Positions 9,819 through 12,200 of a DNA stretch of 43,968 nt are shown here, piece after piece. Origin of the DNA: Cytophagaceae bacterium (GTDB lineage Bacteria; Bacteroidota; Bacteroidia; Cytophagales; Spirosomataceae); the NCBI GenBank assembly GCA_947450865.1, contig CANFWR010000005.1:1-43968 (forward strand). The letters are read 5' to 3'. The translations under genes and the position numbers were made by a program. Numbering within the stretch: the first letter of the stretch is position 1; each line of letters opens with the position of its first letter. The notes under the pieces were generated by a model. The model was not told the origin of the DNA, did no database searches, and saw nothing but the letters and a program-made list of their open reading frames with translations.

Positions 9819-9850
9819 AAAAAAGCCTCGTTCATCGCGAGGCTTTTTTT
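9819..9850. terminator. Bidirectional terminator shared by guaB and hemE
   Basis: The stem GCCTCG (9825-9830) pairs with CGAGGC (9838-9843), extended by AAAAAA on the left and a T8 run on the right. The hemE stop codon begins inside the T-run at 9850-9852. Confidence 0.85.
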
Positions 9851-10881
9851 TATGCTTTATAATTTTGGATCGTATCCACGAAACATTGCACCTTATCTGG
9901 ATCAATGTCTGGATAAACTCCATGACCAAGATTAGCAATGTAACGCTGCGTCCCAAATTGATCAATCATCTTCTTGGTCTCCGCTTCCACCGTCTTAAAG
10001 TCGCCATATAAAGCACAAGGATCTAAATTCCCTTGCAAGGTTTTGTTAGGCCCCACTAATCGACGGGATTCAGCTATATCCATATTCCAATCTAAGCCAA
10101 TCGTCGCACAATTTAATGCCGCCATTTCCTCGCGAGCAAAGAATGCCCCTTTGGCAAAAAGCGTCACCGGAACCTCTGTCACGGCATCACAAATTTGTTT
10201 TAGATAAGGAGTTGAAAACACCGAATACTGAGCTGGCGACAAAATCCCCGCCCACGAATCAAAGATTTGGACCAAATTCGCCCCTGCCGCTACCTGCGCT
10301 TTCAAATACGAAATCGTAGAATCCGTAATCTTTTGCAACAAAGCATGAGCCAGTTCAGGCTCGGCATATAACATCTTTTTGGCCTGAGAAAAAGTCTTAG
10401 ACCCTTTTCCCTCCACCATATAACAGAAAATCGTGAACGGCGCACCGGCAAAACCAATCAAAGGTACCTTGCCAGCCAACTCCTTCTTCACGATCTTAAT
10501 CGCATCTAATACATACTTCAAATCCTGTTCCGGATTTGCATCCCGAATCTTCGCCAAATCCGCTTTCGACCGAATCACCTCCGGAAAAACTGGACCCTTC
10601 TGCTCCTCCATCACATAGGGCAAACCCATCGCCTCCGGCACCACTAAAATATCCGAAAAGATAATCGCCGCATCCACCCCAAAACGCGTCACCGGCTGAA
10701 TCGTCACCTCCGCCGCCATCTCTGGATGCGTCGCTAGACCAATAAAAGAACCCGCTTTCGCCCTTACAGCTCTATATTCTGGTAAAATCCTCCCCGCCTG
10801 ACGCATCACCCAAACCGGGATTCGCTCCACAGGTAAACCCTGCGCGGCACGAAGAAGTAGATCGTTTTGTAGTTTTTCCAT
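9850..10881 (-). CDS. hemE: Uroporphyrinogen decarboxylase
   Basis: HemE converts uroporphyrinogen III to coproporphyrinogen III in heme synthesis. From the start chosen here ([15 protein letters not shown]) it is 343 residues, the usual length. Signatures are [14 protein letters not shown] (about 21-34, the substrate-binding Arg motif), the [11 protein letters not shown] loop, GFAGAPFT and the LGHGVYP end. The frame stays open another 33 codons upstream, but those encode tandem PFGLF units made by the 15-bp repeat array and lie across the promoter, so they are not part of the protein. Confidence 0.95.
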
Positions 10882-10889
10882 ATCTAACA

Positions 10890-10897
10890 CAAAGTTA
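10890..10897 (-). promoter_or_regulatory. hemE promoter -7 box
   Basis: On the minus strand this reads TAACTTTG, an exact TAnnTTTG match. Only 8 bases separate it from the ATG at 10881, so transcripts should start within a few bases of the start codon (very short leader or leaderless). It is embedded in the terminal copy of the inverted-repeat island. Confidence 0.65.
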
Positions 10898-10906
10898 AGG
10901 GAAAAT

Positions 10907-11010
10907 AGTCCGAAGGGAAAGAGTCCGAAGGGAAAAAGTCCAAAAGGGATTAGTCCGAAGGAAGAGAGTCCGGAGGACATGAGTCCGGAGGGAAAGAGTC
11001 CGGAGTCCGA
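10907..11010. repeat. Left array: tandem 15-bp repeat, consensus AGTCCGAAGGGAAAG
   Basis: AGTCC words start at 10907, 10922, 10937, 10952, 10967, 10982 and 10997, an exact 15-bp period, followed by one more 7 bp later at 11004. Units vary (CGAAGGG, CAAAAGGG, CGGAGGA). Being a multiple of three, the array reads through in frame upstream of hemE as PFGLF repeats. It is the inverted counterpart of the array at 11447-11548. Confidence 0.9.
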
Positions 11011-11016
11011 AGGGAA

Positions 11017-11385
11017 TTAGAGATACTTTACTTCGTTTCGGTTCAGCGACCGAGATAGACCATTTAACATTTTTGAAATTTCAATTAGCTGATTATTGCA
11101 GTCATTAAAATCTTCTATTGAAATATAGTTCAATTTAAAGCCTAAATAATTCATTGATCGCACTTCACTTGCTGAACCTAACGCAATAAATAAAAATCTT
11201 TTAAACTCTTTGTCTGAACTTCGATCAAACCCCTCTGCAATATTATTGGCTATAGAAACTGAGGCTCTTTGAATTTGATTTTTAAATCCCCAATCTAGAT
11301 TTACAGCAAATAGCTTGTAGATAGTTAATGATATTTCAATTGATTTTTGCCAAACTAGTAAATCTTCAAATCTAGTAACTCTCAT
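11017..11385 (-). CDS. Four-helix-bundle protein, S23/IVP family (23S rRNA intervening-sequence type)
   Basis: This is a 122-residue protein from the ATG at 11385; a TTG 15 bases earlier is a weaker option. The pattern is that of the S23 family: the N-terminal FEDLLVWQKSIEI (about 5-17), NQIQRASVSIANNIAEGFDR (about 36-55) and FLFIALGSASEVRSMN helices. Members are encoded inside rRNA intervening sequences or as stand-alone genes; the related Avd protein serves diversity-generating retroelements. The cellular role is unknown. I counted 91 G/C in the 300 bases 11041-11340 (30%), against 59 of 120 (49%) in hemE at 10501-10620, which suggests transfer. It lies inside inverted repeat arrays. Confidence 0.88.
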   Translation of the reverse strand: MRVTRFEDLLVWQKSIEISLTIYKLFAVNLDWGFKNQIQRASVSIANNIAEGFDRSSDKEFKRFLFIALGSASEVRSMNYLGFKLNYISIEDFNDCNNQLIEISKMLNGLSRSLNRNEVKYL

Positions 11386-11446
11386 AAGTTTATCTCTCAA
11401 ACGATCTTTATGATTTCTATTGTATCAATAATCTGATAATTGCCTG

Positions 11447-11548
11447 CGGACTACCTCCCTACGGACTCCGGACTATTTCCCTTCGGACTTCGGACTAATC
11501 TCCTCCGAACTCCCTACCTTCGGACTTCGGACTATTTCCCTTCGGACT
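11447..11548. repeat. Right array: 15-bp and 7-bp repeats, consensus CGGACTTCGGACTATTTCCC
   Basis: CGGACT (once CGAACT) starts at 11447, 11462, 11469, 11484, 11491, 11506, 11521, 11528 and 11543: steps of 15, 7, 15, 7, 15, 15, 7 and 15. The unit is therefore a 22-bp composite (7 plus 15) with some 7-bp parts missing. It is inverted relative to the left array (CGGACT against AGTCCG). Confidence 0.9.
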
Positions 11549-11556
11549 ATTTTCCT

Positions 11557-11564
11557 TACCTTTG
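11557..11564 (+). promoter_or_regulatory. engB promoter -7 box
   Basis: TACCTTTG, an exact TAnnTTTG match, 21 bases before the ATG at 11586. It is part of the terminal inverted repeat of the island and is nearly identical in its surroundings to the hemE promoter at the other end. Confidence 0.65.
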
Positions 11565-11585
11565 TCCTTCATCATCACCCGCCCT

Positions 11586-12200
11586 ATGGCTCAGATTAAC
11601 GCTAAATTCGTTACCAGTAACACCGACTTTAAGAATTGTCCTCCAGCAAGATTTCCTGAATTTGCCTTTATTGGCCGTTCGAATGTGGGAAAATCGTCTC
11701 TGATTAATTCGTTAACCTTTCATAAAGGTTTAGCGAAAACATCGCAGACGCCTGGAAAAACACAGTTGATTAATCACTTTATCATTGATGAGAAGTGGTA
11801 TTTAGTGGATTTACCCGGTTATGGTTTTGCCAAAGTCAGCAAGGAAAAACGCAAGGAGTTCGAGAAAATGATCTTTGATTATTTGATCCATCGGGAGAAT
11901 TTGACTTGCTTATTTGTTCTATTAGATATCCGTTTAAAGCCTCAGGCGGTGGATATTGAGTTCATGAGCCGGATGGTGGAGGATGAAATACCGTTTTACA
12001 TCGTGTTTACTAAAGCAGATAAGTTGTCCCAAAAGCAGGTAAATGAAAGTGTTGAGGTGTATAAAAACTTCCTTTTAGAAATGTGGGATGAATTACCTCC
12101 TTTATTTATTACCTCGGCTGAGAAGCATGTGGGGCGCGAGGAAATTTTGAAGTCCATCGATGAATTAATTCAAACATCCCCTTATAGAATAGGGAAATAG
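11586..12200 (+). CDS. engB: Ribosome biogenesis GTP-binding protein YihA/YsxC (EngB)
   Basis: This small GTPase assists large-subunit assembly. The 204 residues contain G1 GRSNVGKS (about 30-37), the G2-region threonines in KTSQTPGKTQ, G3 DLPGYG (about 82-87) and G4 FTKADK. The start is the ATG of MAQINAKF; a TTG 24 bases upstream falls inside the promoter box and is rejected. The next gene's promoter begins 3 bases after its stop. Confidence 0.95.
   Translation: MAQINAKFVTSNTDFKNCPPARFPEFAFIGRSNVGKSSLINSLTFHKGLAKTSQTPGKTQLINHFIIDEKWYLVDLPGYGFAKVSKEKRKEFEKMIFDYLIHRENLTCLFVLLDIRLKPQAVDIEFMSRMVEDEIPFYIVFTKADKLSQKQVNESVEVYKNFLLEMWDELPPLFITSAEKHVGREEILKSIDELIQTSPYRIGK

Follow-up and report, generated by a model that had tools for sequence, protein, structure and literature searches.

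An S23 gene between inverted heptamer arrays at the hemE-engB site of a Cytophagaceae bacterium, a probable mobile cassette

Results

A large hairpin between hemE and engB with an S23 gene in its loop

The window, a stretch of 43,968 nucleotides of contig CANFWR010000005.1 from a Cytophagaceae bacterium, carries an S23-type gene, i.e. a gene for a 23S rRNA-intervening-sequence protein of the four-helix-bundle type, on the minus strand between hemE and engB. The gene for uroporphyrinogen decarboxylase, hemE, lies at 9850-10881 on the minus strand (PF01208, 5.9e-137) and the engB-like GTPase gene, for which we keep the name engB given in the initial annotation, at 11586-12200 on the plus strand (PF01926, 4.8e-19). 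Both match their profiles as intact genes, in agreement with the initial annotation, which had described the neighbours as undamaged. The S23 open reading frame spans 11017-11400 on the minus strand, with a likely ATG start at 11385 resulting in a protein of 122 amino acids (11017-11385; PF05635, 9.5e-33). On the hemE side it is bordered by the left arm (10900-11014, plus strand, ends approximate), consisting of about eight copies of a AGTCCGAAGGGAAAG-like unit with a period of 15 (7+8) and with the AG-rich strand directed inward. On the engB side follow a loop representing the 5' leader of the S23 gene (11386-11446, minus strand) and the right arm (11447-11557, minus strand, ends approximate), an inverted array of the left-arm unit that reads CGGACT on the plus strand and shows periods of 15, 22 and 37. 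The arms are complementary to 78% over 54 nt and to 97% over 31 nt, which together with the profile match confirms the earlier description of an S23-type gene with inverted arrays on both sides. Written as RNA, the minus strand of the 677-nt unit is predicted to fold into one hairpin of -243.3 kcal/mol, compared to -159.2 +/- 6.0 kcal/mol for 20 shuffled versions (z -14.1).

Two divergent promoter boxes recognised by eye delimit the space that the unit occupies, one of hemE (10890-10897, minus strand; CAAAGTTA on the plus and TAACTTTG on the minus strand) and one of engB (11557-11564, plus strand; TACCTTTG), both being -7-like with respect to the consensus TAnnTTTG. A similar box adjoins most hemE-engB gaps of relatives, be they filled or unfilled, as judged by eye. 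The window S23 gene has a G+C content of 30%, from which the initial annotation had argued for a compositionally foreign unit. This argument does not hold: in 209 of 214 loci the S23 gene has a lower G+C content than its flanks, with which it correlates at r 0.85, so low G+C is no mark of recent foreign origin.

The S23 protein and its fold

The window protein scores 113 bits against PF05635 at a curated cut-off of 33.8, and its AF2 monomer model (pLDDT 94.4) shows four helices. A Foldseek search with this model returned the family members and PDB relatives 2gsc (TMq 0.85) and 2rld, followed by Avd 4dwl (TMq 0.74, 8% identity, E 0.026), making Avd (4dwl, 8ub7) the nearest fold outside the S23 family. 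This match would fit a retroelement in which S23 serves as an Avd-like helper while a reverse transcriptase copies the unit, but RVT_1 was not found in 33 of the 38 genus genomes, those designated G000 (the genome of the window) and G001 included, and we regard such a retroelement as very improbable. Copying driven by a reverse transcriptase was rejected as a candidate, as RVT_1 (PF00078) has no match in G000, and so was mobilisation by a Y1 transposase, PF01797 having no match in G000 (90.9% complete) or G001 (99%); PF01797 matches in 12 of the 38 genus genomes.

S23 proteins are basic (median pI 8.96, n=183) and their genes were found in 157 of 198 Bacteroidota genomes drawn, with up to 16 copies. 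Annotated as 'four helix bundle protein', they are thus very common in Bacteroidota, yet they have been discussed mainly for rRNA. A relative from Xanthomonas has been reported to form a homopentamer ring, and the accessible part of the same source describes S23 proteins as having no known function (PMC4990558).

Inverted arrays around S23 genes elsewhere

We scored arms by local alignment of the two 300-bp flanks of a gene, the one following the gene being taken as its reverse complement, and applied a threshold of at least 16. This was reached by all 58 usable loci of the genus (all 60 S23 matches, 2 of which were dropped for short flanks), by 31 of 44 family loci (the best-scoring 30 and 14 hand-picked lower in the list) and by 16 of 30 phylum loci (the best-scoring 30), but by 9 of 296 control ORFs, which came from 11 genus and family genomes and not from the phylum or named genomes. 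The genus loci are not independent, since all 60 lie at only 12 sites. When flanks were swapped between genomes, 4.9% reached the threshold. As so few control ORFs attain a score found at every usable genus locus, chance is excluded; chance and simple low-complexity flanks were ruled out by the control ORFs, the swapped flanks and the within-genome swaps described below.

A further named set comprises at least 80 loci from one scan selected by one peptide motif, 4 of 80 being dropped for short flanks. Among the matches listed, arms were found in 48 of 76 loci, i.e. in 22 of 34 Bacteroidota-type loci and in 26 of 42 others, the latter comprising, as grouped by record title, Pseudomonadota-type (8/15), Verrucomicrobia-type (4/5), CPR (3/5), Clostridia (2/4) and remaining loci (9/13). 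The threshold was missed by 13 of 44 family, 14 of 30 phylum and, among the matches listed, 28 of 76 named loci, several of which show weak arrays by eye. The expectation of the initial annotation that S23 genes elsewhere are flanked by inverted short-period arrays therefore holds for all 58 usable genus loci, while outside the genus not every locus lies above the threshold. The association of S23 genes with such arrays is real and widespread.

All five plasmid loci fetched, out of 24 plasmid records, possess clear arms with scores of 17-42.5, and no phage record matched at E 1e-5 in a search for phage carriage. Self-comparison of the 80 named loci revealed no rRNA-like flank among the 40 rows listed, so the comparison with rRNA drawn below rests on one paper. 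Several single loci deserve mention. Armed cassettes on cyanobacterial plasmids (L385, L387, L386) are enclosed by cas6 and cas4, by cas10 and a Cmr3-family gene, and by two ribonucleotide reductase genes. An Azospirillum lipoferum plasmid (L388, 1501-1848) carries an S23 ORF with clear arms where the PLSDB table, which is incomplete, has no gene. At site 3 of the genus (L117-L119, L121, L123) the arms are composite, TTAGTC units taking turns with small GC-rich hairpins such as CGCTGCTTCGCAGC. Nested hairpins beside S23 genes (L003 1250-1420 and 1840-1980; L135, L140) seem by eye to have an inner stretch in common (GTATTTGAAAT..., CATCAAAATGG...), which may be another small element located within the loops. 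In both strains of Flavobacterium columnare, a four-helix-bundle gene lies between the genes for guanylate kinase and nicotinate-nucleotide adenylyltransferase, according to the accessible part of the source (PMC5524665).

A period-7 unit with AG directed inward

Both flanks pass a strict period-7 test at 69 of 161 S23 loci and at 2 of 296 controls. In 54 of these 69 loci the left unit and the reverse-complemented right unit agree in at least 5 of 7 places (null 15.5%), and the 5' consensus of the unit contains AG in 56 and CT in 13 of the 69. Measured by AG pairs 7 or 8 apart, with the genus represented by one locus per site and the family by one per genome, the AG-inward polarity is found on both sides at 99 of 161 loci and the opposite polarity at 7 of 161, the remainder being mixed; the corresponding numbers for controls are 45 and 25 of 296. 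Compared to the controls, the S23 loci show an excess of AG-AG spacings of 7, 14 and 21. AG and the period are what the loci have in common, the other letters of the unit varying widely. Within genomes G195 and G320 a gene's own arms match in 15 of 26 cases and swapped arms in 12 of 320, a count including two end loci of G320 that have identical arms and scores and perhaps are one place counted twice; S23 copies within one genome thus differ in their unit.

The hemE-engB site in relatives

EngB was searched in 38 genus genomes and 30 loci were read. The hemE-engB gap contains an S23 cassette in 16 of them (in one, L038, hemE lies off the contig), an ORF-less hairpin of TAGGTA repeats in 4 (L045, L049, L054, L055), a short gap of 105-120 bp in 8 and other fillings in 2 (L056, L058). 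Fourteen of the 30 loci are therefore devoid of the unit, providing the comparison of presence and absence among relatives to which the initial annotation had attached weight. At L056 the gap of 805 bp harbours a different long element lacking S23 and inverted-repeated by eye. The ORF-less AGGTA hairpins might be deletion products of the S23 cassette with AGGTA unit; in a comparison of the two, the 80 matches listed all concern L045 and apparently reflect similarity of the arms, the loops being different by eye.

Two further contigs raise the number of known S23 loci at hemE-engB to 18, which we sorted by unit and protein cluster into three types: type A with unit AGTCCG and S23 cluster 2, type B with unit TAGTCGC and the pooled S23 clusters 5 and 9, and type C with a CAGTA-like unit, including variants such as CAGTTGTC, and S23 cluster 1. 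Since type B pools two clusters, its link between unit and protein holds partly by definition. The closest relatives of the window carry B and C proteins only 56-58% identical to the window S23, with HemE being 98-99.6% and EngB 97-99% identical. On a tree of hemE and engB with 28 rows, leaving out L038 (no hemE on the contig) and L041 (short hemE), types A, B and C require 5, 4 and 3 changes, of which 4, 3 and 2 are forced by well-supported branches. Each type occurs in both S23-carrying clades, and the sister pair G026/G009 (support 100/100) carries B and A. Compared to 500 label shuffles, 181 (A), 97 (B) and 500 (C) were as low, none of the types being clearly clustered; all labels taken jointly do show clustering, requiring 12 changes compared to a mean of 16.1 in shuffles, of which 1 of 200 was as low, and this arises mainly from presence or absence. 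Two contigs of one genome bin (G009, C88 and C121) each contain a hemE-engB locus, with S23 types A and C, which suggests a bin of mixed strains.

Nucleotide identity within types between the host clades amounts to 69.4-80.4%, and single comparisons between types gave 64.8% (A-B), 71.3% (A-C) and 73.1% (B-C), the last being no lower than some within-type pairs, so that B and C are not sharply apart in DNA. The flanks diverge between the clades about as much as S23 does within a type, supporting that the cassette types are old and have been exchanged between backgrounds. Ordinary homologous recombination, its breakpoints lying close to the arms, could account for this exchange.

Loop inversion and joint travel of gene and arms

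Four of the nine sites with more than one locus (sites 0, 1, 2 and 5) include S23 genes pointing either way with respect to their neighbours. The flip occurs within one S23 cluster at sites 0 and 5, the flipped loci at sites 1 and 2 belonging to other clusters. Comparison of L042 and L044 at hemE-engB shows by eye the S23 gene and its leader inverted as a block with the polarity of the arms kept.

Among the 42 pairs of S23 genes with at least 68% identity at differently numbered sites, 17 have no flank homology, and the claim of joint travel is limited to these as the different-site class also holds orthologous loci of different genera. Like arms (score of at least 20) were found in 14 of the 17, compared to 3.5% of random pairs; after removing three pairs with very high scores, each maybe one site cut by a contig end, the count is 11 of 14 pairs, from six of seven lineages in our own grouping. 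Related S23 genes at unrelated sites hence mostly share their unit, showing that the arms travel with the gene. As a counter-case, site 4 combines one S23 cluster with two units, AAAGCAT or TAGAG.

These observations bear on a host regulatory device, in which an S23 ring would bind NAG repeats in its own leader in a TRAP-like manner, the arms being an attenuator and movement incidental recombination. The AG arm does lie in the S23 5' leader at most loci and the protein is basic, as such a device would have it. An S23 match is absent, though, in 10 of the 38 genus genomes (some of them incomplete) and in 41 of the 198 phylum genomes, and exchange of types and flipping are unlike a fixed regulator, making this device improbable.

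Dispersed arrays in the same genomes

The genome of the window (G000; 2.38 Mb, 177 contigs) possesses three S23 genes, the other two being located by eye between inverted heptamer arrays of AAAGTTC (L002) and AAAGCAT (L003). AGTCCGNAGGG has 25 matches in this genome, 18 of them away from hemE-engB, and the pattern read backwards has none. At 210-393 of the window, a terminator-like GGGGATCAGATTGATCCCC stem is enclosed by an ORF-less inverted heptamer hairpin composed of TAGAGTA and AAAGCAT units, AAAGCAT being also the unit of S23 locus L003 in the same genome.

Away from hemE-engB, the B unit (TAGTCGNTAGTCG) is present 70, 38, 27 and 20 times in cluster-5 and 26 and 9 times in cluster-9 genomes carrying a B cassette, in contrast to 0, 1, 2, 0, 3 and 0 times in six close relatives whose cassettes are of type A or C, one of these relatives (G028) being placed by S23 and an EngB fragment only. 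In the rest of the genus it occurs 5-12 times in six genomes and 0-1 times in 20. A one-sided Mann-Whitney test on the first 18 genomes, using totals with the local copies counted in, gave p 0.0004. A split of this kind is not seen for unit A, of which carriers have 18-62 copies elsewhere and non-carriers of the two clades 8-43, and the AGGTA unit is abundant across a whole clade including G007 and G027. Arrays persist where S23 was not detected, with 34 matches in G007 (98% complete), 49 in G027 (98%) and 92 in G006 (81%).

In sampled 20-kb stretches we counted gaps with ORF-less heptamer hairpins, finding 1 of 200 in S23-free genomes, none of which is from the genus, 2 of 170 in genomes having a single copy, 13 of 158 in those with 3-6 copies, which include four genus genomes, and 8 of 223 in those with 8-15 copies. 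The 24 hairpins found compare to 3 in 751 shuffled gaps. The lone hairpin of S23-free G135 looks non-heptameric, and the sampled gaps of S23-rich G233 and G254 contain no ORF-less hairpin. A link in trans between S23 and the dispersed arrays is thus suggestive, not general.

Discussion

The dispersed arrays allow for two further readings. In the first, the sites are hot spots of the host, in which heptamer hairpins originate at intergenic positions and expand through replication slippage and template switching, and S23 genes are passengers of the loops, the protein taking no part in the arrays. ORF-less hairpins at hemE-engB and elsewhere, arrays retained by S23-free relatives and a unit A not bound to type A carriers all agree with such host hot spots, as do the heptamer arrays published for Beggiatoaceae, Cyanobacteria and five Bacteroidetes, for which S23 goes unmentioned in the accessible part of the source (PMC4679880). 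Passengers would, however, not be expected to keep the A and C units with their S23 cluster in both host clades or to be accompanied by their arms to unrelated sites. The abundance of the B unit elsewhere (20-70 in four cluster-5 genomes vs 0-3 in six close relatives), the frequency of gap hairpins (1/200 in S23-free genomes outside the genus vs 21/381 in those with at least 3 copies) and an AG polarity of 99 to 7 argue against it as well, and we consider host hot spots rather unlikely.

The second is a version of our favoured explanation resembling REP/RAYT, according to which S23 acts in trans on all hairpins of its unit, as non-autonomous dependants, in addition to its own cassette. B-unit cassettes and genome-wide B arrays co-occur, the ORF-less AGGTA hairpins at hemE-engB of G025 and G034 share the unit of the only S23 gene found in those genomes (site 5), and hairpin 210-393 shares the AAAGCAT unit with L003. 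Unit A and AGGTA, on the other hand, reach their counts without needing a resident cognate S23, and to our knowledge no nuclease activity of S23 is known, and we consider action in trans on all such hairpins less likely than not.

Taken together, we interpret the unit as probably being a mobile cassette, in which inverted tandem arrays of a unit of about 7 nt (here 7 and 7+8) with AG directed inward form the arms of a large hairpin and an S23 gene occupies its loop. This interpretation, made at the level of sequence comparison, is based on the polymorphism of the site, the exchange of types between very similar flanks, the inversion, the joint travel of gene and arms and the recurrence in many phyla. 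The mobile unit proposed by the initial annotation is thereby upheld in part, as cassettes are exchanged at a fixed site, loops are inverted and arms accompany the gene, and deprived of its argument from foreign G+C; its non-autonomy, its movement through the repeats and the binding of the repeats by the protein are putative. Our best reading is that of a heptamer-armed S23 cassette, the genome-wide counterpart of the S23-coding 23S rRNA intervening sequence.

As a mechanism, we propose that the basic S23 protein may bind the AG-heptamer arm of its own cassette, either as mRNA 5' leader or as single-stranded DNA at the fork, and that arm-bound S23 would assist host enzymes in copying or exchanging strands between arrays that share a unit. 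Out-of-register pairing of the hairpin and template switching could lengthen and correct both arms together, which would explain why the arms stay matched. TRAP binds NAG triplets, and by analogy an S23 ring might read regularly spaced NAG motifs.

More tentatively, S23 might be the core of a class of mobile elements found across bacteria, in which a ring protein recognises its own heptamer code, each lineage having a private heptamer spread as inverted arrays, with gene-less arrays as dependants and the 23S rRNA intervening sequence as the case that landed in rRNA; we regard this as possible but not probable. Should the protein turn out to recognise the repeat of its own cassette, the S23 unit could be the type of such a new class. 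In our search of the mostly open-access literature we found no description of S23 genes enclosed by inverted arrays; heptamers beside an S23 gene are mentioned, as far as accessible, in the Coxiella paper alone (PMC4990558). The matched, locus-specific repeat unit provides a concrete handle on the role of S23, and the arms link S23 proteins to scattered intergenic heptamer repeats.

Comparison with known systems

In REP/RAYT systems (TnpA-REP), one gene stands between inverted palindromic repeats, further copies of which are scattered over the genome. The flanking repeat of the window unit is likewise dispersed in G000; unlike REP/RAYT, no Y1 (HUH) transposase match was found in this genome and the S23 unit is a 7-nt tandem array that differs between cassettes of one genome. 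With Avd of diversity-generating retroelements, S23 shares the four-helix fold (4dwl, 8ub7 by Foldseek), whereas identity is 7-10% and the genome of the window has no RVT_1 match. Similar to MITEs and insertion sequences, the S23 cassette has inverted ends, is intergenic and is polymorphic, but its ends vary among copies, the three cassettes of G000 having three units by eye, and in contrast to insertion sequences the unit contains no transposase. TAACTGA heptamers, intergenic repeats of Cyanobacteria, Beggiatoaceae and some Bacteroidetes, resemble the S23 arms in being intergenic tandem heptamers and differ in that the accessible part of the source describes them as direct repeats (PMC4679880); 'S23' and 'four helix' have no occurrence in the main text of that paper.

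The closest parallel in design is the 23S rRNA intervening sequence of Coxiella burnetii, a horizontally acquired selfish element according to the accessible part of its source. It combines an S23 ORF with a terminal stem of 28 bp, a strong RNA hairpin and, just before the S23 start, two to three tandem GACAGAT heptamers (containing AG), the number of which varies between strains (PMC4990558). The window unit is intergenic, between hemE and engB, unlike an intervening sequence of 23S rRNA, and compared to Coxiella the S23 cassettes have longer, locus-specific arrays on both sides and are present several times per genome. Both place the S23 ORF in the loop of a stem with complementary ends and tandem heptamers before the S23 start, a likeness known from one paper, as far as accessible, with the window showing period 15 (7+8) with 7-nt steps and its relatives period 7 (PMC4990558). 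From these features, the Coxiella intervening sequence looks like the same design in rRNA.
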